Source: Pelagibius marinus (GTDB lineage Bacteria > Pseudomonadota > Alphaproteobacteria > Kiloniellales > Kiloniellaceae). From it: a DNA stretch of 64,000 nucleotides. Of the stretch, positions 2,940 to 39,827 are shown one piece after another (within the stretch, counting starts at the first letter, position 1; the number at the start of each line of letters is the position of its first letter). The notes beneath the pieces were generated by a model that worked only from the letters and a program-made list of their open reading frames with translations, did not search any database and had not been told where the DNA came from. The position numbers and the translations under genes are program-made. Location: assembly GCF_014925385.1 (NCBI RefSeq), contig NZ_JACSDK010000009.1, positions 248,001 to 312,000 on the forward strand, written 5' to 3'.

Positions 2940-2996
2940 AAAAAAAAGCCGCCCGACCAATCGCGCCCCGGGTTCGGGTCGCTTGGTCGAGCGGCT
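2940..2996 (-). terminator. Leader (attenuator) intrinsic terminator of the nrt operon
   Basis: On the minus strand the arms AGCCGCTCGACCAA (2996-2983) and TTGGTCGGGCGGCT (2960-2947) pair over 14 positions with one G:U, and are followed by eight Ts (2947-2940). It lies inside the nrtA leader, 88 bases before the nrtA start, so it would stop transcription ahead of the operon unless prevented. Its 5' arm overlaps the loop and 3' arm of hairpin 2 (2988-3003), so the two structures cannot coexist. Confidence 0.88.
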
Positions 2997-3003
2997 GTGC
3001 TCG
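2988..3003 (-). promoter_or_regulatory. ANTAR antiterminator hairpin 2 (hexaloop ACAGCC)
   Basis: Minus-strand CGAGC-ACAGCC-GCTCG: a 5-bp stem closing a six-base loop with A at position 1 and G at position 4, the conserved signature of RNA hairpins bound by ANTAR-domain proteins. Its loop and 3' arm are also the start of the terminator stem at 2940-2996. Stabilising this hairpin (by NasT) would therefore disrupt the terminator and allow nrtABC transcription. Confidence 0.82.
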
Positions 3004-3047
3004 GATGCTCCTGCGGCGGAGCTAAGGCTGTAAATCAGCTATGTGAC

Positions 3048-3073
3048 GGGACCGGCCGCCATTGGCCTGTCCC
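3048..3073 (-). promoter_or_regulatory. ANTAR antiterminator hairpin 1 (hexaloop AATGGC)
   Basis: Minus-strand arms GGGACAGGCC and GGCCGGTCCC pair over ten positions with one mismatch around the loop AATGGC, again a hexaloop with A1 and G4. It is the upstream half of the two-hairpin ANTAR recognition element; hairpin 2 follows 44 bases later. The protein expected to bind is NasT, encoded at 6553-7125. Confidence 0.82.
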
Positions 3074-3088
3074 CGAATGTTGCAGTGC

Positions 3089-3118
3089 ACCCTAAAGCAG
3101 CGCGAAAGAGGCTGTCAA
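3089..3118 (-). promoter_or_regulatory. Candidate promoter of the nrtABC operon
   Basis: On the minus strand a perfect TTGACA (-35, 3118-3113) is followed after 18 bases by TAGGGT (-10, 3094-3089). The -10 is weak (three of six), which is common when an activator is used. The predicted transcript start near 3082 lies just upstream of hairpin 1, giving a leader of about 230 bases. Confidence 0.5.
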
Positions 3119-3139: not shown

Positions 3140-3169
3140 GCACACCTTATGTGTGCCTATGATTTAGGC
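3140..3169. promoter_or_regulatory. Overlapping inverted repeats upstream of the nrt promoter
   Basis: GCACAC-CTTAT-GTGTGC (3140-3156) is a perfect 6-bp inverted repeat. It runs directly into GCCTA-TGATT-TAGGC (3155-3169), a perfect 5-bp one. They lie just upstream of the TTGACA element in an unusually AT-rich patch, where an activator would bind. The spacing (9 bases between GCAC and GTGC) does not fit the NtrC consensus, so the bound factor is unknown. Confidence 0.4.
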
Positions 3170-3593: not shown

Positions 3594-4913
3594 ATGTCGA
3601 AGGACACAATCCGCTACGCCAAGAGCGACGGCCTAAACATTGCCTATCAAGTCACCGGTCGTGGACCGCGTGAAATGGTGCTGATTTCTGGCTGGGTCTC
3701 ACATCTTCAAATGGACTGGGCCCACCCGGATCATGCCCGATTTCTGGATCGACTGGGCTCTTTTTCTCGGCTCATCCGGTTTGACAAGAGAGGCACCGGA
3801 TTATCAGACCGGCCGGGTGAGCTACCGGACCTTGAAACACGCATGGACGACGTGCGCGCAGTGATGGACGCCACACACGTCCGGCGAGCAACAATCTTCG
3901 GGTATTCGGAAGGCGGGCCGATGGCAATCCTCTTCGCCGCGACATTTCCGGAGCGTGTCGAGGCGCTGGTCATCTACGGGTCCTATGCGCGTCGCATGGC
4001 CGCCCAGGACTATCCGTGGGGCTACACCTCGGAGGAGCGCACTCGCTATGCGGATCAAGTGGAGAGCGAGTGGGGTTGGGAAAACGACATGTACCTCATG
4101 TGTCCAAGCGCAGATGCGGCGATGGCAGAGTGGTGGGGAGCGCGTGCGCGGGCATCAGCCAGTCCTGGATCCGCACGTGCCTTGATCGAAATGAATTCAC
4201 TCGTGGACGTTCGTGAGATCCTGCCGACGATCCAGGTTCCCACTCTGGTCATGCACCGCAGTGGGGATAAAGATTCCCGAGTTGAGGAGGGTCGCTTCAT
4301 CGCAGACCATATTGCTGGATCGACCTTTGTCGAGCTGGAAGGCGAGGATCACTTTGTGGCCATTAACCCGGACCAGATCGTGGATCAAGTGGAACTGTTC
4401 GTTACCGGCGAGCGAGCTACTCAGTCTACCAATCGCAAGCTGGGGACAATTCTGTTCATTGACATCGTTGATTCGACCGGCAGGGCTATCGCCGCCGGTG
4501 ACGAGCAATGGGCTTCAATACTTGGCACGTTCGAGGAAACGGTGCGGAAGGTTCTAGACAGGCATCGTGGGCGCTTCGTCAACACCACCGGTGATGGTGC
4601 CATTGCGGTTTTTGACGGTCCTGCCCGTGCAATTCGGTGCGGATGTGACATACGCGACGCGAGTCACGAGCTTGGTCTTGCGGTACGCTGCGGTGTTCAT
4701 ACCGCCGAAGTCGAGGAGCGCGGCAGCGACATTGCGGGAATCGGTGTTCACGTGGCAGCCCGCATCGCTCAGGTGGCAAGTGAGGACGAAGTCTGGACGT
4801 CGCAAACTGTAAAGGATCTGGTATCTGGATCCGGCATCCGATTTCTTGACCGGGGTGACCACGTGCTAAAGGGTCTTAGTGCACCCATGGCCTTATCGTC
4901 CGCCGTAGGATGA
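3594..4913 (+). CDS. Alpha/beta hydrolase fused to a class III nucleotidyl cyclase domain
   Basis: A 439-residue two-domain protein. The N-terminal ~270 residues are an alpha/beta hydrolase with the nucleophile elbow GYSEGG, an acid in RSGDKDSRV and a histidine in EGEDHFVAI. The C-terminal ~160 residues are a class III adenylate/guanylate cyclase: the metal aspartates are in FIDIVDST and TGDGAIAVFDG. The position usually holding Lys just before TTGDG is Asn here (FVNTTGDG), so nucleotide preference is uncertain. No transmembrane segment is seen. ATG 3594 is chosen by analogy with family starts; an in-frame GTG lies at 3552. It interrupts the nrt-nasST neighbourhood and has visibly lower GC than its neighbours, suggesting later acquisition. 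Confidence 0.85.
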   Translation: MSKDTIRYAKSDGLNIAYQVTGRGPREMVLISGWVSHLQMDWAHPDHARFLDRLGSFSRLIRFDKRGTGLSDRPGELPDLETRMDDVRAVMDATHVRRATIFGYSEGGPMAILFAATFPERVEALVIYGSYARRMAAQDYPWGYTSEERTRYADQVESEWGWENDMYLMCPSADAAMAEWWGARARASASPGSARALIEMNSLVDVREILPTIQVPTLVMHRSGDKDSRVEEGRFIADHIAGSTFVELEGEDHFVAINPDQIVDQVELFVTGERATQSTNRKLGTILFIDIVDSTGRAIAAGDEQWASILGTFEETVRKVLDRHRGRFVNTTGDGAIAVFDGPARAIRCGCDIRDASHELGLAVRCGVHTAEVEERGSDIAGIGVHVAARIAQVASEDEVWTSQTVKDLVSGSGIRFLDRGDHVLKGLSAPMALSSAVG

Positions 4914-7327: not shown

Positions 7328-8533
7328 TTAACCCTTCGCGCGATGCCCCGATAGGTAGAGCGGCGCGTAGCGCAGCACGAAGAGCCCGAAGGCCGCGGTC
7401 CACAGCGCCCCGGAGGCATGCAGCAGGGGCATGTAGGCCTCCAGCGCCAGCGAGGCCACGACCCGCAGCGCCGCGGCCCCGTTGACCAGCAGATAGACCA
7501 TCGTCGTCCAGCTGTCCGCCGTCAGCGCCCGGCCGCTGTGACCCAGGCTCGCCCGGGTCATCACCGCCAGCGTCATGGCGCCGATGGCCCCGGCGGTCAG
7601 TGCGTGCAGCCCGGCGGTCGTCGCCGGCACCTCCGGCACCACGATGCCCAGCGCCAGCAGCATGAGTCCCAGCGGCACCCAGAGGAAACCCAGGTGCAGG
7701 CTCCACAGCAGCGGCTCCGGCAGGCTGCGCAGCCCCTGCCAGCGGGCCAGGCGCATGGCGTTGAGGACACCGGCCAGCAGCAGCAGGCCGCCCACCACGG
7801 CGTGGTCCGGCAGGGCCACCCAGGCGACCAGCGAGATCGCGGTGACCAGCAGGCAGAGCTTGTCGAAGCTGCCGAAGGGCAGCGGCATCGTTGTCGCGCC
7901 GCGCTTGGCCAGCCAGTTGCGGGTGAAGCTGGGCAGGATGCGCCCGCCGATGAGACAGATGAGCATGATCACCGCGGCCACCCCCAGGCGCTGCCCGGCC
8001 GACCCTGAACTCAGCAGACCCGCCGCCTCCAGGTGGGTCAGGGCATTGGCGGCGAGCAGCACGGCGAGCGCCAGGGGAAGCGGCAGGTTGCGCCAGTTGC
8101 GCCCGGCGACGATCTCGCGCAGCGCCAGGGCCAGCAGCAGTAGGGGAAAAGCCAGGTCGAGCACGGCGGTCGGCAGGGCGCCGAGCAGGCCGGAGACCGC
8201 CATGGCGAGGCGGCCCAGCAGCCAGCAGCCGGCCAGCACCATCAGCGCCGTCCCCTGCACCGGCAGGCGCCCCGTCCAGTTGGGCACGGCCGTCAGCAGG
8301 AAGCCGGCGATGACCGCGCCGGCGAAGCCGAAGATCATCTCGTGGGCGTGCCAGGCCAGAGGGCCGAAGAGCAGCGGCAACTCGAAGGCGCCCAGGAACT
8401 GGCCCAGCCACAGCGGCAGGGCCAGAGCGGCCCACAGACCGGCAGCGAAGAAAAAGGGCCGGAAGCCTTGGCGAAAGAGAGCCGGACCGTTGTAGTCCCG
8501 GCGCCGGTCCAGGCCCGACTCACCGCTGCTCAT
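7328..8533 (-). CDS. nnrS: NnrS family heme-copper membrane protein
   Basis: A 401-residue polytopic membrane protein (about 12 hydrophobic segments) starting near FRQGFRPFFFAAGLWAALAL, the typical NnrS N-terminus, with WHAHEMIFGFAGAVIAGFL and LTAGAIGAMTLAVMTRASLG further on. NnrS proteins bind heme and copper and protect against nitric-oxide stress during nitrate respiration. It is the last gene of the nar operon and overlaps the hemerythrin gene by four bases (ATGA). The conserved histidines of WHAHE and of LHALTAGAIG are visible. Confidence 0.9.
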   Translation of the reverse strand: MSSGESGLDRRRDYNGPALFRQGFRPFFFAAGLWAALALPLWLGQFLGAFELPLLFGPLAWHAHEMIFGFAGAVIAGFLLTAVPNWTGRLPVQGTALMVLAGCWLLGRLAMAVSGLLGALPTAVLDLAFPLLLLALALREIVAGRNWRNLPLPLALAVLLAANALTHLEAAGLLSSGSAGQRLGVAAVIMLICLIGGRILPSFTRNWLAKRGATTMPLPFGSFDKLCLLVTAISLVAWVALPDHAVVGGLLLLAGVLNAMRLARWQGLRSLPEPLLWSLHLGFLWVPLGLMLLALGIVVPEVPATTAGLHALTAGAIGAMTLAVMTRASLGHSGRALTADSWTTMVYLLVNGAAALRVVASLALEAYMPLLHASGALWTAAFGLFVLRYAPLYLSGHRAKG

Positions 8534-9090
8534 GCGTTTTCCTCTCCGGCACCTTCCTGGCGGCGGCGCAGCAGGTTCGCCGAGAGGCGGACCAGGTCGT
8601 CCGGTGAGAGGCGCCGGCGGGCCAGCGGCAGCACCACGGAGTTCTCCAGCGCCAGATGGCGGCGCTCGTTGCGGGCGAAATCGATCATCGCCTCGCGCAG
8701 TCCCGGCAGAGCCGAGGGCGGCTGCGCCGCGGCCAGCGCCTTCTCCAGGCCCTCGATCACAATGTCGGCCAGGTGGCGGTCGCCGGCATGCTCGGCGTTC
8801 AGCGCCGAGAGCACCCGCTCGATCTCGTCCTCCGGCGGGCAGCGCTCGCGCATCAGCGGGAAGAGGTCCTCCTCCTCGTCGCGCACATGCAGCACCGCAT
8901 CGTGGCGCAGGAAATCCAGGACCTCGGCCGTCAGCGCCCAGTCCAGGGTCTCGGCCAGCGCCATTTCCTCGATCAGGTTGCACAGCTTGCGCTGGCGAAA
9001 GTGCTCGGCAAAGAAGAAGTCGAGGGGGTCGCTGAGCAGTGCCGCCGATGCCGGCTCGATCTGCGGCGGAATTCTTAGCGCGGCACTCAT
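8530..9090 (-). CDS. Hemerythrin HHE-domain protein
   Basis: A 186-residue cytoplasmic protein with hemerythrin-like His/Glu motifs: FFAEHFRQRKLCNLIEE, RHDAVLHVRDEEEDLFP, AEHAGDRHLAD and RNERRHLALENSVVLP. These would bind a di-iron centre that senses or scavenges O2 or NO. The start ATG 9090 is chosen because translation upstream is not protein-like. It lies 31 bases after the PPIase and overlaps nnrS, both of which point to a protective role against NO formed during nitrate respiration. Confidence 0.87.
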   Translation of the reverse strand: MSAALRIPPQIEPASAALLSDPLDFFFAEHFRQRKLCNLIEEMALAETLDWALTAEVLDFLRHDAVLHVRDEEEDLFPLMRERCPPEDEIERVLSALNAEHAGDRHLADIVIEGLEKALAAAQPPSALPGLREAMIDFARNERRHLALENSVVLPLARRRLSPDDLVRLSANLLRRRQEGAGEENA

Positions 9091-9121
9091 TGCGGCCTCC
9101 CTTGCTTTCTTTTCTTGTGGA

Positions 9122-9916
9122 CTATTGGACCAGCGGGCTCTCCGCGGCGTCGAGCACGATGCCTTCGATCTGCGCCTGCCCGGCAAGGACCCGGATGTAC
9201 TGGGCGACGGCACGCCGCCAGGACGTCTCCTGCAACTGATCGGCAATGGTTTCCGCCACCGCCTCGAAAGGCAGCTCCCGGCCTTCGATGCGGCGGTCGA
9301 GGCGCAGGACGTGCACGCCGTAGCGCGATTGCACCGGCACCGGGCAGAGCTGTCCTTCTTCCAGGTTCTCCAGGAAGGTCTCGAATTCCGGCACCGTCTC
9401 GCCGCGCGCCACCTGGCCCAAACGTCCCTCGTTCTGCGCCGAAGTGCAGGCGGAGAACTCGGCAGCCAGCTTGGCGAAGCGCTGGGGCTTCTCCTGCAGA
9501 GCGGCGATCAGACGCTCGGCCTCGGCCACCGCCTTGGCATAGGCCGCCGCCTCCTCCGGCGCGGCGGAGAGCAGGATGTGCGCCGCCTCGAAGAGATCCG
9601 GACTGCGAAAGCGCGCCCGGTTGTTGTCGAAATAGCGCCGGCAGGTTTCCGGGTCCGCTTCCGGGATCGTCACCTCGGCCGCGAGGAGGCAGCGGATCAG
9701 CGCGTCCTCTTCGGCCTCTCGCCGTCCCTGGCCGTCGCTCTGCGGTTCGGCCTCGATGCCCCGGCGGCGCGCTTCCTGCAGCAGCAGTTCGCGGATCGCC
9801 AGCGCCGTGGCGGCGGCGGTCAGCGCCTCCTCCGGCGTGTCGGCGGGGTGGTGCTGGGCCTCGGCCAGCACCGCCGCCGGTTCGATGGTCGTCTCGTTGA
9901 TACGGATCTCCTGCAT
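9122..9916 (-). CDS. Parvulin-type peptidyl-prolyl isomerase of the nar operon
   Basis: A 264-residue protein with an N-terminal helical region and a C-terminal rotamase domain (about residues 105-215): AAHILLSA, FAKLAAEFSACTSAQNEGRLG and SRYGVHVLRLDRR. No signal peptide is visible, so it should act in the cytoplasm, where NarGH matures. Parvulin genes directly after narI are known in many nar operons and may assist assembly. It starts four bases after narI ends. NifM is a related protein, but there are no nif genes here. Confidence 0.85.
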   Translation of the reverse strand: MQEIRINETTIEPAAVLAEAQHHPADTPEEALTAAATALAIRELLLQEARRRGIEAEPQSDGQGRREAEEDALIRCLLAAEVTIPEADPETCRRYFDNNRARFRSPDLFEAAHILLSAAPEEAAAYAKAVAEAERLIAALQEKPQRFAKLAAEFSACTSAQNEGRLGQVARGETVPEFETFLENLEEGQLCPVPVQSRYGVHVLRLDRRIEGRELPFEAVAETIADQLQETSWRRAVAQYIRVLAGQAQIEGIVLDAAESPLVQ

Positions 9917-9920
9917 CGCC

Positions 9921-10619
9921 CTACTCCGCGGCTGCCCGCTTGGAGCGCACGATCTGATAGCCCGGGCGCCAGAAGTAGCGCAGCGGCACGCTCAGCATGT
10001 GCACCAGGCGCGTGAAGGGGAAGACCAGGAAGATGGTCAGGCCCAGGAAGAGGTGCGCCTTGAAGATCGGATGCGCCCCGGCGATGTAGCTCGACGCGGC
10101 GAAGTCGAAGGTGAAGATTCCCTGCGCCCAGGACATGAAGGTGACCATCTCGTTGCCGTCCAGGTGCCCCAGCGACAGCGGGATGGTCGCCAGACCCAGG
10201 GCGAGTTGCAGCCACAGCAGCACGATGATGGCGTTGTCGCCGAAGCTGGAGGTAGCGCGGATGCGCGGGTCGAAGAGGCGCCGGTGCGCCAGCATGGTGG
10301 CGCCGATGATCGCGAAGCCGCCGGCCACGCCGCCGACCACGATGGCCATGATCTGCTTGAAGCCGTGGCTGATGCCCACCAGGTCGAACAGCTGGATCGG
10401 CGTCAGCAGGCCGACCAGATGGCCGAAGAAAACGATGAGCACGCCGACGTGGAAGAGCACCGAGCCCATGACGAGCTGGCGCCGGCGCAGCAGCTGGCTC
10501 GACCCCGAGCGCCAGGTGTAGGGCTCGCGGTCGTAGCGGATGATCGAGCCCAGCGCCAGCACGGCCAGCGCGATGTAGGGGTAGATTCCGAAGATCAGCG
10601 TGTTGAGGAAGGAAGCCAT
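9921..10619 (-). CDS. narI: Respiratory nitrate reductase gamma subunit (cytochrome b)
   Basis: Membrane diheme cytochrome b of NarGHI, 232 aa, with five hydrophobic segments. It takes electrons from quinol and passes them to NarH. The likely heme-ligand histidines are in FHVGVLIVFFGHLVG and in KAHLFLGLTIFLVFPFTRLVHM. Typical N-terminal family stretches are FGIYPYIALAVLALGSIIRY and RREPYTWRSGSSQLL-like sequence. The length is normal. It lies 12 bases after narJ. Confidence 0.96.
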   Translation of the reverse strand: MASFLNTLIFGIYPYIALAVLALGSIIRYDREPYTWRSGSSQLLRRRQLVMGSVLFHVGVLIVFFGHLVGLLTPIQLFDLVGISHGFKQIMAIVVGGVAGGFAIIGATMLAHRRLFDPRIRATSSFGDNAIIVLLWLQLALGLATIPLSLGHLDGNEMVTFMSWAQGIFTFDFAASSYIAGAHPIFKAHLFLGLTIFLVFPFTRLVHMLSVPLRYFWRPGYQIVRSKRAAAE

Positions 10620-10631
10620 GACGCGTGCTCC

Positions 10632-11348
10632 TCACAAAGGCTTGGTATCGGCGGGACGATCCATCCGCGCCAGTGTGTCGCGCACCGCCGGGCAGCCGCC
10701 GCCCGGCGAAACGCCGCCGGCGCCCGGGGCCCCGGGGCCAAAGGTGACCGGCTGGTCCTCCCAGGCGCGGTCGAGAGCCTCCAGGTCCTCGGGGTCGTCG
10801 TCCGGCGCGGCGAGCAGTTCATCCAGCACCGCCTGCGACGGCTTTCCCCGGGAGATGCCCTCCAGCGCGAGCAGCACCCAGGCGTAGTCGCTCTTGCGCT
10901 TGCGCAGACGCTCGGCCAAGGCGGCGACGACATCGAGCGGCTGCTCCAGCAGTTCCAGCGCCTCCGGCAGCGGCCGGGTGGCGAGGAATTCCAGAAACAG
11001 AGGCAGGAAGTCCGGCAGTTCCCTGGCACTCAGCACCAGACCGTGGCGCTCGTAGTGTTCGGCCAGGTCGACCATGGCTTGGCCGCGGTCGCGGCTCTCC
11101 CCGTGGATGTGCTCGAAGAGGTGCAGCGACAGCGAACGCGAGCGGTCAAACAGCAGGACGTAGCGTTCCTGCAGGTCGTAGAGATCCCCCTCGGCGATCT
11201 CGTCCAGCAGGCGGGTCAGCCCTTCCAGGCAGTTGGCCGGGACCAGCTTCTCGCTGGCGAGGATCTGTTTCATCTCGCCGGCCGCTTCCTGCAACTCCGC
11301 CTCGGGATAGGTCAGCAGCAGGGAAAGCACCTTGAAAGTCTTGGCCAT
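10632..11348 (-). CDS. narJ: Nitrate reductase molybdenum cofactor assembly chaperone
   Basis: A 238-residue NarJ/TorD-type chaperone that keeps NarGH in an insertion-competent state and is not part of the final enzyme. Recognisable parts are KVLSLLLTYPEAELQ at the N-terminus and DRSRSLSLHLFEHIHGESRDRGQAM-type sequence in the middle (HLFEHIHGESRDRGQAM), the NarJ hallmark. Its ATG overlaps the narH stop by one base, indicating tight coupling. Confidence 0.94.
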   Translation of the reverse strand: MAKTFKVLSLLLTYPEAELQEAAGEMKQILASEKLVPANCLEGLTRLLDEIAEGDLYDLQERYVLLFDRSRSLSLHLFEHIHGESRDRGQAMVDLAEHYERHGLVLSARELPDFLPLFLEFLATRPLPEALELLEQPLDVVAALAERLRKRKSDYAWVLLALEGISRGKPSQAVLDELLAAPDDDPEDLEALDRAWEDQPVTFGPGAPGAGGVSPGGGCPAVRDTLARMDRPADTKPL

Positions 11349-12874
11349 CAGAACACCTCCGTCGGGGTTTGCACCTTCTTCTTGCGCGGGCCGCCGAAGA
11401 GGTTGGTTTCACTGGCCCCGCCCGAGCAGCCGTTGCCGAAGCTGAAGCCGCAGGAGCCGCGCAGGTCGTAGGCGTCCTCACCCAGCTCGCGGTGGGAGGT
11501 CGGGATGACGAAGCGATCCTCGTAGTTGGCGATGGCCATGACGTGGTACATCTCCTCGATGCGCTCCACGCTGAGGCCCACCCGCTCGGCCAGCGAGGCG
11601 TCGATGACGCCGTCGACGGTCTTGGAGCGCATGTAGGCGCGCATGCCCAGCATACGCTGCAGGGCTTCGGCCACCGGCGCCTCGTTGCCGCCGGTCAGCA
11701 GGTTGGCCAGATAGCGCAGGGGGATGCGCAGCGCCGAGACGTCCGGCAGGCCGTCGTCCCAGGCGATCTTGCCGGCCTCCGCCGCCGACTGGATCGGCGA
11801 GAGCGGCGGCACATACCAGACCATTGGCAGGGTGCGGTACTCCGGGTGCAGCGGGAAGGCGACCTTCCAGTCCATCGCCATCTTCCACACCGGCGACTTG
11901 CGCGCCGACTCCAACCAGGCCTCCGGCACGCCGTCGGCGCGGGCCTGCTCGATCACCTTGGGATCGTTGGGGTCGAGGAAGATGTCGAGCTGCGCCTGGT
12001 AGAGGTCGCCCTCGTCCTGGGTCGCCGCGGCCTCGCCGATGCGGTCGGCATCGTAGAGCAGGACGCCCAGATAGCGGATACGCCCGACGCAGGTCTCCGA
12101 GCAGACCGTCGGCTGCCCCGCCTCGATGCGCGGATAGCAGAAGATGCACTTCTCCGACTTGCCCGTCGACCAGTTGTAGTAGATCTTCTTGTAGGGACAG
12201 CCGGAGACGCACATGCGCCAGCCGCGGCACTTCTCCTGGTCGATCAGGACGATGCCGTCCTCCTCGCGCTTGTAGATTGCGCCGGAAGGACAGGCCGCGA
12301 CGCAGGCAGGATTGAGGCAGTGCTCGCAGAGGCGCGGCAGGTACATCATGAAGGTGTTCTCGAAGACGCCGTAGATCTCCTTCTCGACGCCCTCGAAGTT
12401 CACGTCCTTGGAGCGCTTCTCGAACTCGCCGCCCAGGATCTCCTCCCAGTTCGGACCCCATTCGATCTTCTCCATGCGCTCGCCGCTGATCAGCGAGCGC
12501 GGCCTGGCCGTCGGCGAGGCCTCCAATTCCGGCGCCTTCTGCAGGTGCTCGTAGTCGAAGGTGAAAGGCTCGTAGTAGTCGTCGATCTCCGGCAGGTCGG
12601 GGTTGGCGAAGATCTTCGCCAGCACCCGCCACTTGGGGCCCATCTTGGGCCGCAGGCGGCCGTTGCCGGTACGCTCCCAGCCGCCGTTCCAACGCTTCTG
12701 GTTCTCCCACTCCTTGGGATAGCCGATCCCGGGCTTGGTCTCGACGTTGTTGAACCAGGCGTATTCCATGCCTTCACGGTTGGTCCAAACGTTCTTGCAG
12801 GTGACCGAGCAGGTGTGGCACCCGATGCACTTGTCGAGGTTCAGCACCATGCCGATTTGTGCGCGGATTTTCAT
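11348..12874 (-). CDS. narH: Respiratory nitrate reductase beta subunit (Fe-S)
   Basis: A 508-residue iron-sulfur subunit that relays electrons from NarI heme to NarG. Four cysteine groups are present: CIGCHTCSVTC near the N-terminus, then CEHCLNPACVAACPSGA, CRGWRMCVSGCPY and CIFCYP/CSETCVG. The Trp inside CRGWRMC replaces a cysteine and marks the [3Fe-4S] site typical of NarH. The length matches the family. The start ATG 12874 overlaps the narG stop by four bases. Confidence 0.97.
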   Translation of the reverse strand: MKIRAQIGMVLNLDKCIGCHTCSVTCKNVWTNREGMEYAWFNNVETKPGIGYPKEWENQKRWNGGWERTGNGRLRPKMGPKWRVLAKIFANPDLPEIDDYYEPFTFDYEHLQKAPELEASPTARPRSLISGERMEKIEWGPNWEEILGGEFEKRSKDVNFEGVEKEIYGVFENTFMMYLPRLCEHCLNPACVAACPSGAIYKREEDGIVLIDQEKCRGWRMCVSGCPYKKIYYNWSTGKSEKCIFCYPRIEAGQPTVCSETCVGRIRYLGVLLYDADRIGEAAATQDEGDLYQAQLDIFLDPNDPKVIEQARADGVPEAWLESARKSPVWKMAMDWKVAFPLHPEYRTLPMVWYVPPLSPIQSAAEAGKIAWDDGLPDVSALRIPLRYLANLLTGGNEAPVAEALQRMLGMRAYMRSKTVDGVIDASLAERVGLSVERIEEMYHVMAIANYEDRFVIPTSHRELGEDAYDLRGSCGFSFGNGCSGGASETNLFGGPRKKKVQTPTEVF

Positions 12875-15800
12875 TCTGCTGCCTCCCCACTGAAGGAATC
12901 CTGGCCGTCTTGGGCGGGCCGTTCGAGCCAGTCGACCTTGTCCATCTTGCGGACGATGACGAACTCGTCGCGGTTGGAGCCCACCGTGCCGTAGTAGTTG
13001 AAGCCGTAGGACTGCTGGGCATAACCGCCGATCATGTGAGTCGGCTTCAACACCGCGCGGGTCACCGAATTGTGGATGCCGCCGCGCTGGCCCGTCATCT
13101 CCGAGCCCGGCGTGTTCACGATCTTCTCCTGCGCGTGGTACATGAAGATCGTGCCCTCGTGCATGCGCTGGGAAACCACGGCTCGGGCGGTCAGGGCCCC
13201 GTTGGTGTTGTAGGCCTCGACCCAGTCGTTGTCCTTGATGCCCGCCTTCCTGGCGTCCGTCTCGCTGATCCACACCACGGGACCGCCGCGGTTGAGGGTC
13301 AGCATCAGCAGGTTGTCGGTATAGGTGGAGTGGATGCCCCACTTCTGGTGCGGCGTGATGAAGTTCAGCACCACCTGCGGATTGCCGTTGTCCTTCGACT
13401 TGATGACAGGGTTCACGGTCTTGGTGTCGATCGGCGGACGGTAGACACAGAAGCCCTCGCCGAAGGCCCGCATCCAGAGGTGATCCTGGTAGAGCTGCTG
13501 GCGGCCGGTCAGCGTGCGCCAGGGGATCAGCTCGTGGACGTTGGTGTAGCCGGCGTTATAGCAAACCTTCTCCGACTCGATGCCCGACCAGGTCGGCGAG
13601 GAGATGATCTTGCGCGGCTGGGCGACCACGTCGCGGAAGCGGATCTTCTCGTCCTCCTTGGGCACCGCCAGGTGCGTGTGGTCACGCCCCGTGGCCTTGC
13701 CGAGCGCCTCCCAGGCCTTGACCGCGACTTCGCCGTTGGTCTCCGGCGCCAGCATGAGGATGACCTCGGTGGCGTCGATATCGGTTTCGATGCGCGGCAT
13801 GCCCTTGGTGGGGCCTTCCTCGACCACCACGCCGTTCAGCTTGGCGAGGCCATCGACCTCGTGCTCGGTGTTCCAGGAGATGCCCTTGCCGCCGTTGCCC
13901 AGCTTGTTCATCAGCGGGCCCAGCGCGGTGAAGCGCTTGTAGAGGTTCGGGTAGTCGCGCTCGACCACGGCGATCTGCGGCATGGTCCTGCCGGGGATCG
14001 GGTCGATCTCGCCCTTCTTCCAGTCCTTCACGTCCATCGCCTGAGCGATCTCCGCCGGCGTGTCGTGCAGGATCGGCACCGTGACCACGTCCTTCTCCAC
14101 GCCCAGCACCTCGGGCGCCACCTCGGAGAATTTCTTGGCGATGCCCTTGTAGATGTCCCAGTCGCTGCGGCACTCCCAGGCCGGGTCGGCCGCGGAAGTC
14201 AGCGGATGGATGAAGGGATGCATGTCGGAGGTGTTGAGGTCGTTCTTCTCATACCAGGTCGCCGTCGGCAGCACGATGTCCGAGTAGACGCAGGTGGTCG
14301 ACATGCGGAAGTCCAGGGTAACCAGCAGGTCGAGCTTGCCTTGCGGCGCCTCGTCGTGCCACACGGCCTCCTGCGGCTTCTGAGCCCCGTTCTCACTGGC
14401 ATCCTCGCCCAGGTCCTTGCCGAGGACGCCGTGCGAAGTGCCGAGCAGGTGTTTCAGGAAGTACTCGTGGCCCTTGCCCGAAGAACCCAGCAGGTTGGAG
14501 CGCCAGACGAACATGTTGCGCGGCCAGTTGGCCGGATTGTCCGGATCCTCGCAGGACATCTTGAGCTCGCCGGACTTCAGCTGCTCGACCACGTAGTCCT
14601 TAGGGTCCTTGCCGGCCGCCGCGGCCGCCTTGGCGACCTCCAGCGGGTTGGTCTGGAGCTGCGGTGCCGAGGGCAGCCAGCCCATGCGCTCGGCGCGGAT
14701 GTTGTAGTCGATCAGCGCGCCGTCCCAGGGGCCTTCCGGCGCCGTCGGCGAGAGGATCTCCTCCACGCCCAGGCTCTCGTAGCGCCATTGGTCGGTGTGG
14801 GCGTAGAAGAAGGAGGTGGAGTTCATGTGCCGCGGCGGGCGGGCCCAGTCGAGGCCGAAGGCCAGCGGCAGCCAGCCGGTCTGCGGACGCAGCTTCTCCT
14901 GGCCGACGTAGTGTGACCAGCCGCCGCCCGACTGTCCGACGCAGCCGCACATGACCAGGAGATTGATGATCCCCCGGTAGTTCATGTCCATGTGGTACCA
15001 GTGGTTCAGGCCGGCGCCGAGGATGACCATGGAACGGCCGTTGGTCTTCTCGGCGTTGCCGGCGAACTCCCGCGCCACGGTGACGATGTGGTCGGCCGGC
15101 ACGCCGGTGATCGCCTCCGCCCAGGCCGGCGTGTAAGGCACGTTCTCGTCGAAGCTCTTGGCCACGTGCTGGCCGCCGAGCCCGCGGTCGAGGCCGTAGT
15201 TGGCGACGAAGAGGTCGAAGACGGTGGCGACCAGCGCCTCGCCCTCGGTGGTCTTCAACGCCTTCACCGGCACCCGGCGCAGCAGCACGTCGGGATGGTC
15301 GGTGCCCTTGAAGTGGTCGTGCTCGCGGTTGCCGAAGTAGGGGAAGCCGACATCGACCACGTCGTCGTGGTCCTTGTCCAGGATCTGGCTGAGCCGCAGC
15401 TTCACGTCGCGCCCCTCGGCGTCCTTCTCCTCCAGGTTCCACTTGCCCTGCTCGCCCCAGCGGAAGCCGACGGAGCCCTGCGGCGCGACGATGCCGTCAC
15501 TCGTCTCATCGATGGCCAGGGTCTTCCAGTCTGGATTGTTCTCCTGGCCCAGCTTGCCGTCCAGGTCGGAGGCGCGCAGCAGGCGCTCCGGCACGTAGTG
15601 GCCGTCCTTCTTGGTGAGGCGGACCAGCATCGGCATGTCGGTATAGCGCCGGGCGTAGACTTCGAAGTAGTCGGCCTGGCGGTCCAGGTGGAACTCGCGC
15701 AGGATGACGTGGCCCATGGCCATGGCCAGCGCCGCGTCGGTGCCCTGCTTGGGGTGCAGCCAGAGATCGGCGAACTTGGAGGCTTCGGAGTAGTCCGGGC

Positions 15801-16644
15801 TGACCACCACAGACTTGGTGCCCTTGTAGCGCACCTCGGTATAGAAGTGGGCGTCCGGCGTGCGGGTCTGCGGCACGTTGGAGCCCCAGATCATCAGGAA
15901 GCCGGCGTTGTACCAGTCGGCACTCTCCGGCACGTCGGTCTGCTCGCCCCAGGTCTGCGGCGAGGCCGGCGGCAGGTCGCAGTACCAGTCGTAGAACGAC
16001 ATGCAGACGCCGCCCAAGAGGGAGAGGTAGCGCGAACCCGCGGCGTAGGAGACCATGGACATGGCCGGGATCGGCGAAAAGCCGATGACCCGGTCGGGTC
16101 CGTAGGTCTTCGCCGTGTAGGCATTGGCCGCGGCGATGATCTCGTTGACCTCCTCCCACTTGGCGCGCACGAAACCGCCGAGGCCGCGCTTCTTCGTATA
16201 GGCCGCGCGCTTCTTCGGATCCTCGACGATGGAGGCCCAGGCGGCCACCGGCGTACGAACCGCCCGCGCCTCGCGCCACAGCTTCAGCAGGCGCCCGCGC
16301 ACCAGGGGGTACTTCACCCGATTGCCGGAGTAGAGATACCAGCTGTAGCTGGCCCCGCGGCTGCAGCCGCGCGGCTCGTGATTCGGCAGGTCGGGCCGCG
16401 TGCGCGGGTAGTCCGTCTGCTGGGTCTCCCAGGTGACGATGCCACCCTTCACGTAGATCTTCCACGAGCAGGAGCCGGTGCAGTTGGCCCCGTGGGTGGA
16501 GCGCACGATCTTGTCGTGCTGCCAGCGCTTGCGGTAGCTCTCCTCCCAGCTGCGGTCCTCGCCGGTGGTCACGCCGTGACCGTCGGCGAACTCGCCTTGC
16601 GACTTCGAGGAAAAGAAGTTCAGGCGGTCGAGCAGTTGGCTCAT
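12871..16644 (-). CDS. narG: Respiratory nitrate reductase alpha subunit (Mo-bis-MGD)
   Basis: The catalytic subunit of cytoplasm-facing membrane nitrate reductase, 1257 aa, of normal length. His51, Cys55 and Cys59 in THGANCTGSC with Cys94 in RGCSRG form the FS0 cluster site; an Asp of YDWYCDLPP (about 223) is the probable Mo ligand. The N-terminus MSQLLDRLNFF is the vestigial twin-arginine-like start of NarG, not a working Tat signal. ATG 16644 has a GGAGGA ribosome site. It lies 13 bases after narK and reduces nitrate to nitrite with quinol electrons through NarHI. Confidence 0.98.
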   Translation of the reverse strand: MSQLLDRLNFFSSKSQGEFADGHGVTTGEDRSWEESYRKRWQHDKIVRSTHGANCTGSCSWKIYVKGGIVTWETQQTDYPRTRPDLPNHEPRGCSRGASYSWYLYSGNRVKYPLVRGRLLKLWREARAVRTPVAAWASIVEDPKKRAAYTKKRGLGGFVRAKWEEVNEIIAAANAYTAKTYGPDRVIGFSPIPAMSMVSYAAGSRYLSLLGGVCMSFYDWYCDLPPASPQTWGEQTDVPESADWYNAGFLMIWGSNVPQTRTPDAHFYTEVRYKGTKSVVVSPDYSEASKFADLWLHPKQGTDAALAMAMGHVILREFHLDRQADYFEVYARRYTDMPMLVRLTKKDGHYVPERLLRASDLDGKLGQENNPDWKTLAIDETSDGIVAPQGSVGFRWGEQGKWNLEEKDAEGRDVKLRLSQILDKDHDDVVDVGFPYFGNREHDHFKGTDHPDVLLRRVPVKALKTTEGEALVATVFDLFVANYGLDRGLGGQHVAKSFDENVPYTPAWAEAITGVPADHIVTVAREFAGNAEKTNGRSMVILGAGLNHWYHMDMNYRGIINLLVMCGCVGQSGGGWSHYVGQEKLRPQTGWLPLAFGLDWARPPRHMNSTSFFYAHTDQWRYESLGVEEILSPTAPEGPWDGALIDYNIRAERMGWLPSAPQLQTNPLEVAKAAAAAGKDPKDYVVEQLKSGELKMSCEDPDNPANWPRNMFVWRSNLLGSSGKGHEYFLKHLLGTSHGVLGKDLGEDASENGAQKPQEAVWHDEAPQGKLDLLVTLDFRMSTTCVYSDIVLPTATWYEKNDLNTSDMHPFIHPLTSAADPAWECRSDWDIYKGIAKKFSEVAPEVLGVEKDVVTVPILHDTPAEIAQAMDVKDWKKGEIDPIPGRTMPQIAVVERDYPNLYKRFTALGPLMNKLGNGGKGISWNTEHEVDGLAKLNGVVVEEGPTKGMPRIETDIDATEVILMLAPETNGEVAVKAWEALGKATGRDHTHLAVPKEDEKIRFRDVVAQPRKIISSPTWSGIESEKVCYNAGYTNVHELIPWRTLTGRQQLYQDHLWMRAFGEGFCVYRPPIDTKTVNPVIKSKDNGNPQVVLNFITPHQKWGIHSTYTDNLLMLTLNRGGPVVWISETDARKAGIKDNDWVEAYNTNGALTARAVVSQRMHEGTIFMYHAQEKIVNTPGSEMTGQRGGIHNSVTRAVLKPTHMIGGYAQQSYGFNYYGTVGSNRDEFVIVRKMDKVDWLERPAQDGQDSFSGEAAE

Positions 16645-16657
16645 CGTATTCCTCCGG

Positions 16658-19396
16658 TTACTCGGCGGCTGCGTGGGCGGCGGTATCCGTGGCACGACGA
16701 CGTTCGATGTCGTGCAGCAGGCCGCCCCCGCGCGTGTAGAACCACCACGTCAGAAATGCGCAGGTCGCATAGAAGATCGCAAAGCCCCAAAGCGCCGCTT
16801 CCGGGCCGCCGGTCAAGGCGATCGACGAGCCGTAGGACTTCGGAATGAAGAAGGCGCCGTAGGCTGCGATCGCCGAGGTGAAGCCAATGATCGCCGCCGA
16901 CTCCTTCTCCGACTGGCGCTGCCGCGCCGCCGTATCCAGGTTCGGCATCAGACGGCCGATCTCCCGGTGCATGATGACGGGGATCATCTGGAACGTCGAA
17001 GCGTTGCCCACACCGGTTGCGAAGAACAGCAGCATGAACATCGCGAAGAAGCCCCAGAAAGCATAGGACGCGTCCTTGACGGCCAGGAAGTAGAGCACCC
17101 CCATCACCGCCGCGATCATCACGGCGAAGGTCCACAAGGTGACCCGGCCGCCGCCGAACTTGTCGGAGATCCAGCCCGTTGCCGCGCGGCTGAGCGCACC
17201 GACCAGCGGCCCGAGGAAGACGAACTGCAGAGAGTCGACTTCCGGGAACTGGGTCTTGGCGAGCAGCGGGAAACCGGCTGAGTAACCGATGAAGGATCCG
17301 AAGGTACCGGTGTAGAGCCAGCACATGATCCAGTTGTGCTTGCGCTGGAAGATGATCGACTGCTCCTTGAAGGAGGCCCTCGCCGAGGCGATGTCGTTCA
17401 TGCCGAACCAGGCCGCCAGCGTCGCGACGATCAGGAAGGGCACCCAGATGAAGCCCGCATTCTGCAGCCACAGTTGGGTGGTCTCACCCGCCACCTGAGG
17501 CTCCCCGCCGATCGCGCCGAAGACGCCCGCGGTGATGACCAGAGGCACGGTGAACTGCATCACGCTGACGCCCGCGTTGCCGAGGCCGGCGTTGAGCGCC
17601 AAGGCGTTGCCCTTCTGCTTCTTCGGGAAGAAGAAGCTGATATTGGCCATCGAGGAGGCGAAGTTGCCGCCGCCGAAGCCGCAGAGCAGCGCCAGGACCA
17701 GGAAGATCAGATAAGGCGTTTCCGGGTCCTGCACCGCATAGCCGATACCGAAAGCCGGGATCAGCAGGGAAGCGGTTGTCATCGTCGTCCAAAGCCGGCC
17801 GCCGAAGATCGGCACCATGAAGGAGTAGAAGATGCGCAGGGTGGCGCCGGAGAGACCCGGCAGGGCCGCCAGCCAGAACAACTGGTCGGTGGTGTAGTTG
17901 AAGCCGATCGCCGGCAATTTGGCGATCACGACGCTCCAGACCATCCAGACCGAGAAGGCCAGCAGCAGACAGGGGATCGAGATCCAGAGATTGCGGTTGG
18001 CAATCTTGCGGCCCTTGGTGGCCCAGAACTCCTCGTCGTCCGGCCGCCAGTCCTCGATCACCGCGCTTGATGGCCGCACATGCTCAGGCTTGTGGATTTC
18101 CAGCATTTCCGGCAGTTCGGGCAGCTGAGTACCTTGACCGGCGAGGGCCGCCTGTTCCATGCGGCGGATTGCGACGTGCATCCAGACCAGTGCGACCACG
18201 ACGATGCCGAAGAGCAGCGCAAAGCAGCTGGTCCAGATTCCGGTCAGGTCGTTCATCACGCCGAAGGCGATCGGCAGCACAAAACCGCCGAGGCCGCCGA
18301 TCATGCCGACCAGGCCGCCGACGGACCCGACGTTGTCGGGATAGTAGACCGGGATGTGCTTGTAGACCGCCGCCTTGCCCAGCGACATGAAGAAGCCGAG
18401 GACGAAGATCGTCACGACGAAGGGGACCAGGCCCATGCTCGTCGAGAAGACGATCGGCCCCTGGATGCCCTGGATGATGTATTGGGTCTCGGGATAGGAG
18501 AGCATGAAGGTGCAGATCACCGACACGGCGAAGGTCCAGTACATGACCTTGCGCGCACCGTACTTGTCGGACAGGTGGCCGCCATAGGCCCGAAACAGGC
18601 TGGCCGGCACCGCATAGAAGGCGGCAAGCATACCGGCGGTCTTGATATCAAGATCGTAGACGCCGATCAGATAGCGGGGCAGCCACAGCGCGAGGGCGAC
18701 GAAAGCGCCGAAGACGAAGAAGTAATAAAGGGCGAAGCGCCAGACCTGCAGCCGCTTGAGGGGCTCCAGCTCCATAAACATGCTGCGCGGGCGCTGACCG
18801 CTTTTCTTCCGCGCTGCCGTCGCAGGATCGTCACGGGTGAAGAGGAAGAAGAGGACCGCGGTGGCCAGCAACACGGCCGCATAGACCTGGGCGGTCGATT
18901 GCCAGCCGAAGGCCACGAGCAGGAAGGGGGCAACGAAGTTGGTGACGGCAGCGCCGACGTTGCCGACGCCGAAAATGCCGAGCGCCGTGCCCTGGCGATC
19001 CTTCTCGTACCAGCGCGACACGTAGGCGATGCCGACGGCGAAGGAGCCGCCGGCCAGCCCGACGCCGAGCGCCGCGACCAGGAACATCCCGTAGGTGCTC
19101 ACCGTCGACAGCAGGTATACGGCGATAGAGGTCAGCGCCATCACAGCCGTGAATACGGTGCGGCCGCCGTACTGGTCGGTCCAGATCCCCAGGAAGATGC
19201 GGCTCAAGGAGCCGGTGAGAATCGGCGTGGCCACCAGGATGCCGAACTCCGTTTCGGAAAGCCCGAGATCCTGTTTGATCTTCACGCCGATGATCGAGAA
19301 GATCGTCCAAACGGCGAAGCAAACCGAAAAAGAAAAGGTGCTGATGCCCAGCACCTTCGTCTGTTGCCCCGGCGTGACGCCTTGCAGGTCGTGCAT
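16658..19396 (-). CDS. narK: Fused NarK1-NarK2 nitrate/nitrite transporter
   Basis: A 912-residue protein of two complete MFS nitrate/nitrite porter domains (about 12 membrane segments each) joined by a hydrophilic linker near residues 420-455. The first half begins TKVLGISTFSFSVCFAVWTI with GVGLAGGSFAVGIAYVSRW. The second half has FCGFGGGN-type sequence (LCGFGGGNFASSMANISFFF). In Paracoccus such fusions supply nitrate to NarG by proton symport and nitrate/nitrite exchange. ATG 19396 has a GAGGAGGG ribosome site. It heads the nar operon behind two FNR-type boxes. Confidence 0.95.
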   Translation of the reverse strand: MHDLQGVTPGQQTKVLGISTFSFSVCFAVWTIFSIIGVKIKQDLGLSETEFGILVATPILTGSLSRIFLGIWTDQYGGRTVFTAVMALTSIAVYLLSTVSTYGMFLVAALGVGLAGGSFAVGIAYVSRWYEKDRQGTALGIFGVGNVGAAVTNFVAPFLLVAFGWQSTAQVYAAVLLATAVLFFLFTRDDPATAARKKSGQRPRSMFMELEPLKRLQVWRFALYYFFVFGAFVALALWLPRYLIGVYDLDIKTAGMLAAFYAVPASLFRAYGGHLSDKYGARKVMYWTFAVSVICTFMLSYPETQYIIQGIQGPIVFSTSMGLVPFVVTIFVLGFFMSLGKAAVYKHIPVYYPDNVGSVGGLVGMIGGLGGFVLPIAFGVMNDLTGIWTSCFALLFGIVVVALVWMHVAIRRMEQAALAGQGTQLPELPEMLEIHKPEHVRPSSAVIEDWRPDDEEFWATKGRKIANRNLWISIPCLLLAFSVWMVWSVVIAKLPAIGFNYTTDQLFWLAALPGLSGATLRIFYSFMVPIFGGRLWTTMTTASLLIPAFGIGYAVQDPETPYLIFLVLALLCGFGGGNFASSMANISFFFPKKQKGNALALNAGLGNAGVSVMQFTVPLVITAGVFGAIGGEPQVAGETTQLWLQNAGFIWVPFLIVATLAAWFGMNDIASARASFKEQSIIFQRKHNWIMCWLYTGTFGSFIGYSAGFPLLAKTQFPEVDSLQFVFLGPLVGALSRAATGWISDKFGGGRVTLWTFAVMIAAVMGVLYFLAVKDASYAFWGFFAMFMLLFFATGVGNASTFQMIPVIMHREIGRLMPNLDTAARQRQSEKESAAIIGFTSAIAAYGAFFIPKSYGSSIALTGGPEAALWGFAIFYATCAFLTWWFYTRGGGLLHDIERRRATDTAAHAAAE

Positions 19397-39026: not shown

Positions 39027-39827
39027 TTACTCCGCGGCCTGGCGCTGCGCGGCGACCAGCTCGTCGAGGCAGTCGTCGTCCAGCGGGGTGATCGGCGTGA
39101 AGTCCCGGTGCGCGATCCAGTCCTCGCGGTTGAAGGCGCGGATATGATTGTCCACGTGGCACAGCGAGAGATAGACGATGGTCCGGCCGAAGGGAGAGAT
39201 GTTCGGCGGGCTGGCGTGCACCAGCAGGGAGGAGAACATCAGCATGCTGCCGGCGGGGCCGGTGGGCGCCACACAGCCGCCCTTCTCGGCCAGCTTCCTG
39301 ACCGTTTCCCGGTCCAGCGTCCACAGCGGATAGGAGGTCGTCTCGAGATCGTGCCCCGCCTCGACGACGCCCTGCTTGTGGCTTCCCGGAATGAACAACA
39401 GCGGACCGTTGGCCGCCGTGACGTCGTCCAGGAAGACGGCGATGTTCATGGCCCGCGGCTCCGGCATGTCGTCGTCCCTTTTCCAGGTGCCGTAGTCCTG
39501 GTGCCATTGCCAGACCTCGCCGTCGAAGGCCGCCTTTGCATTGACCTTGTACTGATGCATGTAGACCGGCCCGCCGAGGACCTGCTGGACCGGCTCGATC
39601 AGCCGGGGATGCGCACCGAGCCGGCGGAAGCCTTCGTTGTAGAGGTGCGCGGCGAAGGCGGTGCGGGCGACGCCGGAGGCTTCGCGCCAGACCTCCTTGC
39701 GCTCCATCGCGTAGACGTTTTCGGCTTCGTGTTTCAGCAGGGCTGCTTCCTCGGGCGAGAACTTGCCGGGAAAGAACAGATAGCCCTGCTCGTCGAACTG
39801 CTCCAGTTCCTCGTCGGTCAAACGCAT
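39027..39827 (-). CDS. Phytanoyl-CoA dioxygenase (PhyH/EctD-like) family protein
   Basis: A 266-residue Fe(II)/2-oxoglutarate oxygenase. The metal triad is His and Asp of WHQDYGTW plus the later His of LLVHASPP; the Arg of GRTIVYLS should bind 2-oxoglutarate. The region around WHQDYGTWKRDDDMPEPRA resembles ectoine hydroxylase and related small-molecule hydroxylases. No ectABC genes are present, so the substrate is probably the compound handled by the neighbouring SAF oxidoreductase. The start has GGAGGAG. Confidence 0.9.
   Translation of the reverse strand: MRLTDEELEQFDEQGYLFFPGKFSPEEAALLKHEAENVYAMERKEVWREASGVARTAFAAHLYNEGFRRLGAHPRLIEPVQQVLGGPVYMHQYKVNAKAAFDGEVWQWHQDYGTWKRDDDMPEPRAMNIAVFLDDVTAANGPLLFIPGSHKQGVVEAGHDLETTSYPLWTLDRETVRKLAEKGGCVAPTGPAGSMLMFSSLLVHASPPNISPFGRTIVYLSLCHVDNHIRAFNREDWIAHRDFTPITPLDDDCLDELVAAQRQAAE

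Follow-up and report, generated by a model that had tools for sequence, protein, structure and literature searches.

The region in front of nrtA in Pelagibius marinus can be regarded with high confidence as a NasT-responsive antitermination leader of the nitrate assimilation operon nrtABC-nirBD-nasA-cysG. It lies on the minus strand of a stretch of 64,000 nucleotides, here called the window, and its architecture is that of three hexaloop hairpins, the last of which overlaps an intrinsic terminator. That it belongs to the NasT (ANTAR) antitermination leaders is almost certain. The mechanism is a known one, and the layout with three hexaloops looks, as far as the sequence goes, like an undescribed variant.

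In the order of transcription, the leader presents first hairpin P0 (3073-3048; GGGACaGGCC-AATGGC-GGCCgGTCCC; predicted -16.8 kcal/mol), whose A1/G4 hexaloop AATGGC (3063-3058) sits on a C:G closing pair. Hairpin M occupies the P1 slot between P0 and P2 (3022-3007; GCTCC-GCCGCA-GGAGC; predicted -8.1 kcal/mol) and carries the G1/G4 hexaloop GCCGCA (3017-3012), again on a C:G pair; G1 and C5 of this loop could pair with each other. The third hairpin is the antiterminator P2 (2988..3003; CGAGC-ACAGCC-GCTCG; predicted -6.4 kcal/mol) with the A1/G4 hexaloop ACAGCC (2998-2993). From loop to loop, P2 is 19 nt away from M and 65 nt from P0, and the respective linkers measure 3 and 44 nt. The terminator stem-loop (2995-2948; predicted -36.3 kcal/mol) takes its 5′ arm from P2, namely the final three bases of the loop plus the 3′ arm, and ends in a tract of eight U (2947-2940; eight A on the plus strand). 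As they share these bases, P2 and the terminator are mutually exclusive, and their predicted energies imply that P2 needs help to win. P0 and P2 (at 3073-3048 and 3003-2988), as well as the terminator with its 5′ arm taken from P2, had all been named in the original prediction and were recovered on the minus strand. Its description as a dual A1/G4 layout was correct for these elements but overlooked hairpin M. Our first scan for dual hairpins demanded A1/G4 in both partners and thus likewise paired P0 with P2; M emerged once this demand was dropped.

The leader terminator was not listed by the promoter and terminator scan, probably owing to the interruption of its long stem. A possible sigma-70-type promoter, TTGACA-17-TTAGGG (3118-3090), was recognized by reading the sequence and by alignment with L042, the corresponding locus of another species of the genus (G005); TTGACA is kept there, the -10 element is weak, and the consensus promoter scan missed the element. 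About 21 bp before TTGACA, the region 3140-3169 contains the palindrome GCACACATAAGGTGTGC (3140-3156), overlapped by a second palindrome, GCCTAAATCATAGGC. Mainly the first half of GCACACATAAGGTGTGC is kept in L042, and the palindrome is a possible activator site.

The two A1/G4 hairpins, the overlapping terminator and the U tract exist as described and exceed what chance would produce. None of 200 dinucleotide shuffles folds as well as the leader RNA (z -3.0). In 300 single-strand dinucleotide shuffles of the window, strong anchors, i.e. A1/G4 hairpins with an overlapping terminator, occurred at a mean of 0.03 per strand, and none of them had a companion hairpin in the P1 or P0 position. In the real window, the minus strand holds one strong anchor with hairpins both in the P1 slot and at P0, and the plus strand holds no strong anchor. 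A looser scan returned one more candidate in the window, on the plus strand at 39779 (P2 of 3 bp, terminator of -14.5 kcal/mol), which was dropped as it fails the energy limit applied afterwards. Stems form easily in this GC-rich region, and hairpins might have arisen accidentally around an ordinary terminator. Given the outcome of the shuffles, the conservation of the leader in L042 and the leaders of the same kind in relatives, where the four inspected in the same family each have one, this explanation is extremely improbable.

At E 1e-40, NasT was found in six of 61 genomes of the order: the window's own, G005 as the single carrier among seven further species of the genus, G010, G013 and G015 as three of four in a sister genus, and G048. 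NasT of G005 is 92% identical to that of the window. In G005, G010, G013 and G015 the order is nasT-nasS-leader-nrtA, with NrtA proteins behind these leaders that are 81-90% identical; in G048 (L127) nasT and nasS are present, and a scan of the 17 kb fetched revealed no leader. A leader of this kind in relatives, which had been proposed as a check, is found in the former four genomes and was not detected in the G048 region. Alignment with L042 showed that the P0 loop, M, P2 and the overlapping terminator are all kept. The P0 loop and upper stem are identical, and pairing the arms of the lower stem by hand gives two double changes and one wobble, all of which keep the stem, as well as one broken pair. 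P2 is identical, and so are stem and loop of M, which leaves no covariation by which to judge that hairpin. The terminator of L042 reaches -38.6 kcal/mol and contains substitutions. As the genus is represented by two sequences alone, support for the stems within it is thin. The leaders of the sister genus are short-spaced dual leaders in which P0 is absent. They are preceded by a sigma-54-like promoter before the nrtA leader (L043, L044 and L045; TTGGCACGGATCCTGCTGA in L043), and no such promoter is visible before the leader in the window's genus, so that the same genes appear to have changed promoter class between the two genera.

The regulatory proteins expected for such a leader are encoded close to it, as originally noted. 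The nasT gene (7125-6553, minus strand) codes for a receiver and ANTAR RNA-binding protein (PF03861, 75.4 bits); the genome yielded no other ANTAR match. The adjoining nasS gene (6556-5294, minus strand) codes for an NrtA-like nitrate sensor (PF13379, 223 bits; 158 bits to the NrtA structure 2g29). Aligned to EutV (6wsh) with an inferred numbering offset, NasT is identical at five of the nine RNA-contact residues listed in the accessible part of PMC8934654 (R142, K143, E160, Y164 and M172 of EutV), conservatively replaced at two (K147 and R177) and changed at two (N173 and R175, both to serine). An ANTAR protein with contact residues thus stands beside an NrtA-like sensor, as in a NasS-NasT system. 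A gene for a protein with alpha/beta hydrolase and adenylate-cyclase domains (3594-4913, plus strand, 439 aa; best NCBIfam match the LipJ model, below its cut-off) separates nasS from the leader. It resembles an insertion, since nasS and nrtA are neighbours in G005.

With Rfam 15 no match at the gathering score was obtained in the window, and a search of the leader up to E 10 returned seven matches far below gathering, all to unrelated families. A leave-out model built from 44 leaders without any sequence of the window's genus (R2) found its best window match at 2988-3023, i.e. M plus P2, with 26.1 bits (next 17.4), and scored 27.4 bits on L042 (next 12.0). The P1 and P2 stems of 46 leaders covary, with both sides changed in 84 cells compared to 26.8 after shuffling (0/500), a count that leans towards structure because the hairpins had been chosen for pairing. 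The underlying alignment A2 left out four of 50 core sequences (L092, L188 and one each of L184 and L185). Model match, covariation, leaders in four relatives and regulator together strongly support the ANTAR antitermination layout assumed in the original prediction as far as NasT antitermination is concerned, but not its P0-P2 pair, which is 44 nt apart.

Spacing is the point at which the leader departs from the published definition. As far as the available text of PMC3369931 and PMC8164766 goes, the strict dual motif consists of two A1/G4 hexaloop hairpins with stems of at least 3 bp, joined by a short linker, the second of which overlaps an intrinsic terminator. P0 and P2 have the loops and stems, and P2 has the overlap; the linker between P0 and P2 is 44 nt long, and the loop of M starts with G, so that no single pair of hairpins in the leader combines all features of the motif. 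Linkers given in these sources range from 5-12 nt in eut (PMC3369931) to 2-25 nt in actinobacteria (PMC8164766). Since the P0-P2 linker falls outside this range and the pair at usual spacing, M and P2, includes a G1 loop, we describe the leader as a three-hairpin structure. Among 79 leaders of the first set, the loops of P1 and P2 are 17-23 nt apart in 59, with a mode of 19 nt (22 leaders), and no P1 hairpin was found in the other 20. As M lies at the usual 19 nt and R2 picks M plus P2, P0 and P2 are not the pair defined by family spacing. Strict hexaloop hairpins in the P1 slot (n=56) are A1/G4 in 39 cases and G1/G4 in 11. The G1/G4 class occupies this slot in 12 of the 79 leaders, window and L042 included, and in none of the 62 held-out leaders described below, which counts against treating G1/G4 as general.

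The genes behind the leader are those of nitrate assimilation. The first is nrtA (2855-1458, minus strand; nitrate-binding protein, PF13379, 320 bits), followed by the permease gene nrtB (1369-275, minus strand; best NCBIfam match TIGR01183 ntrB with 168.8 bits, below the cut-off of 209) and the start of nrtC (261-1, minus strand), which continues past the window (G000:C9:248261-246537). Because the left edge of the window cuts nrtC, it had seemed that no assimilatory reductase was adjacent and that nitrate uptake was regulated without one. Both claims are refuted by the genes just outside: nrtC is directly followed, on its own strand, by nirB (TIGR02374, 912 bits), nirD, the gene for a NasA-type reductase and cysG (518 bits). 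Here, nirD, between nirB and the reductase gene, was identified by reading its translation alone, and the reductase is a molybdopterin protein of 900 aa for which the Fdh-alpha and NasC models scored best, both below cut-off. Judged by sequence, the gene content of the operon is assimilatory.

Upstream of nasT and on the same strand lie nnrS and the respiratory narGHJI genes (7328-16695), which places respiratory nitrate genes next to the assimilatory ones. NasT might control an uptake that is uncoupled from assimilation and perhaps feeds the nearby NarGHJI, and NasT does control nap and nos in Bradyrhizobium (PMC6759348, partial text). With nirB, nirD, the reductase gene and cysG directly behind nrtC, such an uncoupling is very unlikely. 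Moreover, anchor scans of the window revealed no further strong ANTAR leader, whether at narG or at another site, and there was no second ANTAR leader among the genome's 21 best matches (up to E 10) to a 46-leader model, of which the window leader alone has an overlapping terminator; the first look of this whole-genome search scored 150 of 6,476 candidates and would miss a target with other spacing.

For the operon we infer joint transcription, a response to nitrate, binding of NasT and a division of labour among the hairpins, along the following lines. When nitrate is absent, NasS would hold NasT, P2 would lose to the stronger terminator, and transcription would stop at the U8 tract. Nitrate or nitrite would make NasS release NasT. 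Free NasT would dock on the hexaloop hairpins of the nascent leader, which offers P0 (AATGGC), M (GCCGCA) and P2 (ACAGCC), and would stabilize P2; the terminator could then not form, and the polymerase would read into nrtA and on through cysG. P0, transcribed first and equipped with a consensus loop, may serve as the loader of NasT, and the pair of M and P2 at usual spacing as the switch. Dissociation of NasS and NasT by nitrate or nitrite and binding of NasT to the nasA leader have been reported for Paracoccus denitrificans (PMC3795266, partial text).

Our preferred reading is that P0 loads NasT and M/P2 does the switching. The main rival is a long-range pairing in which NasT acts on P0 and P2, bridging the linker of 44 nt, and M is a compact structural spacer and not a binding site. 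The consensus loop is indeed found in P0 and not in M. According to the accessible part of PMC8934654, G4 is bound and A1 has no specific contact; by this reasoning the cross-loop pair between G1 and C5 might harm binding to M. Replacement of hairpin HI in P. denitrificans abolished growth on nitrate (PMC5424462, partial text), and P0 may stand in for P1, as the P1 slot lacks a hexaloop hairpin in 19 of the 45 P0-bearing leaders. The association of P0 with a noncanonical P1 is weak, however (p 0.07 over all leaders, 0.04 by cluster), the spacing-based model picks M and P2, and EutV antitermination was ruined when its linker was lengthened to 14 nt or by 20 nt (PMC3369931 and PMC8934654, partial texts). 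On balance, a P0-P2 pair is a serious contender that falls short of being probable. Rather unlikely is a third view, in which M and P2 form an ordinary dual leader with a divergent P1 and P0 is a passive 5′ stabilizing hairpin or a relic. It would account for the sister genus (G010, G013 and G015), whose leaders do without P0, and for the absence of P0 from 96 of 141 leaders. Yet the A1/G4 signature and the preference for A2 and C6 go with ANTAR recognition and not with mere stability, P0 is clustered on the NasT tree, and its loop is kept in L042 while the lower stem changes. Both rivals to the loader model contest the division of labour and not antitermination itself.

The survey of P0 started from 134 sources (the window, the 84 loci L042-L125, L127 and the 48 loci L156-L203), which were scanned for A1/G4 hairpins overlapping a terminator. 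Anchors with a terminator energy above -19.9 kcal/mol or a P2 loop ending in GG were excluded, and eight were removed by hand as coding or atypical (L095, L097, L109, two of L113, L122, L125 and L200). This left 79 leaders from 73 sources; the remaining 61, among them G048 (L127), yielded no leader that was kept. The removed anchors of L095 and one of L113, which lie beside nasTS, are probably true but odd leaders, and removal of this L113 anchor worked against P0, since an A1/G4 hairpin lies at -49 in it. The region from -75 to -29 holds 52 strict hexaloop hairpins, of which 23 are A1/G4, followed by G1/G4 with eight. P0 is present in 22 of the 79 leaders; 200 shuffles gave 1.0 on average and never more than 4.

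The same excess was seen in a held-out set of 60 new loci whose leaders were unseen when they were chosen; they were taken from 105 genomes with a match and represent new genomes, not new clades. Here, 45 loci gave 62 leaders, none of them at the 85% copy level of any first-set leader, and P0 occurred in 18 (shuffle mean 0.63, maximum 3, 200 shuffles); this set was filtered by rule only and still includes a few anchors resembling coding sequence. With a looser stem rule, P0 is found in 45 of all 141 leaders. Positions of its loop that had not been selected follow P1 and P2, with A2 in 37 and C6 in 28 of the 45. On the NasT tree, P0 is clustered and has changed several times (44 of 118 loci, 19 changes versus 35.7 after shuffling, with long-branch warnings). 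Three A1/G4 hairpins occur in leaders including L110, L114, L196-L198, L303 and L304. The idea that P0 complements a degenerate P1 was not upheld: it was suggestive by cluster (Fisher test) and lost this over all leaders, and it was not significant in phylogenetically independent pairs. At least two ANTAR-type leaders within about 20 kb were noticed at L118, L168, L175, L182, L184, L185, L286, L287, L292 and other loci, from which multi-operon NasT regulons may be common in other lineages.

These data allow the tentative proposal, to which we give somewhat less than an even chance, that many NasT leaders of Pseudomonadota are three-site switches in which P0, 40-70 nt before P2, acts as the main loader together with or instead of P1. 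If true, ANTAR antitermination would not need a fixed spacing of dual hairpins. By accepted definition, ANTAR targets are tightly spaced two-hairpin motifs, and ANTAR regulons are predicted on this basis. If a distant hexaloop works as a NasT site, recognition and search models would need revision, and regulons would have been missed. At stake is a quarter to a third of the leaders, whether counted in the first set, in the held-out set or by the looser rule. The window leader, with its degenerate P1 and strong P0, is a natural test case that separates the ideas, because the hairpin at short spacing is the one with the poor loop, and the good loop lies at long spacing.

Published work on ANTAR describes two-hairpin motifs, as far as the accessible texts go, and no description of a third hexaloop in leaders of NasT or of other ANTAR proteins was recognized in the open-licence literature among the matches listed. 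ANTAR RNAs have already been reported upstream of genes for nitrate and nitrite transporters (PMC3369931, partial text). In P. denitrificans, HI was placed 137 bp upstream of nasA (PMC5424462, partial text). The leader of P. denitrificans HAMBI_2443 (L312 5861-5931), a strain different from that studied by experiment, has the hexaloops AACGGC, AATGAT and GACGAT, 25 and 23 nt apart, at -155, -130 and -107 from nasA. HI thus lies among these three hexaloops; it could not be assigned to a particular one from the accessible part of PMC5424462. By reading, the HAMBI_2443 hexaloops are followed by a stem that resembles a terminator but has no clear U tract.

Among known systems, the NasS-NasT controlled nas leaders, such as P. 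denitrificans nasA, share with the window the nasT-nasS pair and the position before nitrate assimilation genes, and by analogy nitrate-responsive antitermination would be expected in the window, too. Azotobacter nasAB has another leader of this kind. Unlike in P. denitrificans nasA, the first genes in the window are nrtABC, an arrangement also present behind nasTS in Paracoccus marcusii and Rhodobacter sp. CZR27. The window further differs from these systems by the hydrolase/cyclase gene of 439 codons between nasS and leader, and from its sister genus in that no sigma-54 promoter is seen before the leader. The Bradyrhizobium NasT regulon, with leaders at nap, nos and nirA, employs the same regulator pair and is also alphaproteobacterial, whereas one leader, before assimilatory genes only, was detected in the window's genome among the 21 best model matches. 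With the eut, nasF and amiE leaders, the leader presented here has in common the G4 hexaloops with a C:G closing pair, a last hairpin that excludes an intrinsic terminator and an ANTAR protein encoded nearby. Those leaders have two hexaloop hairpins, whereas that of P. marinus has three, with G1 in the middle loop and the originally predicted pair 44 nt apart.
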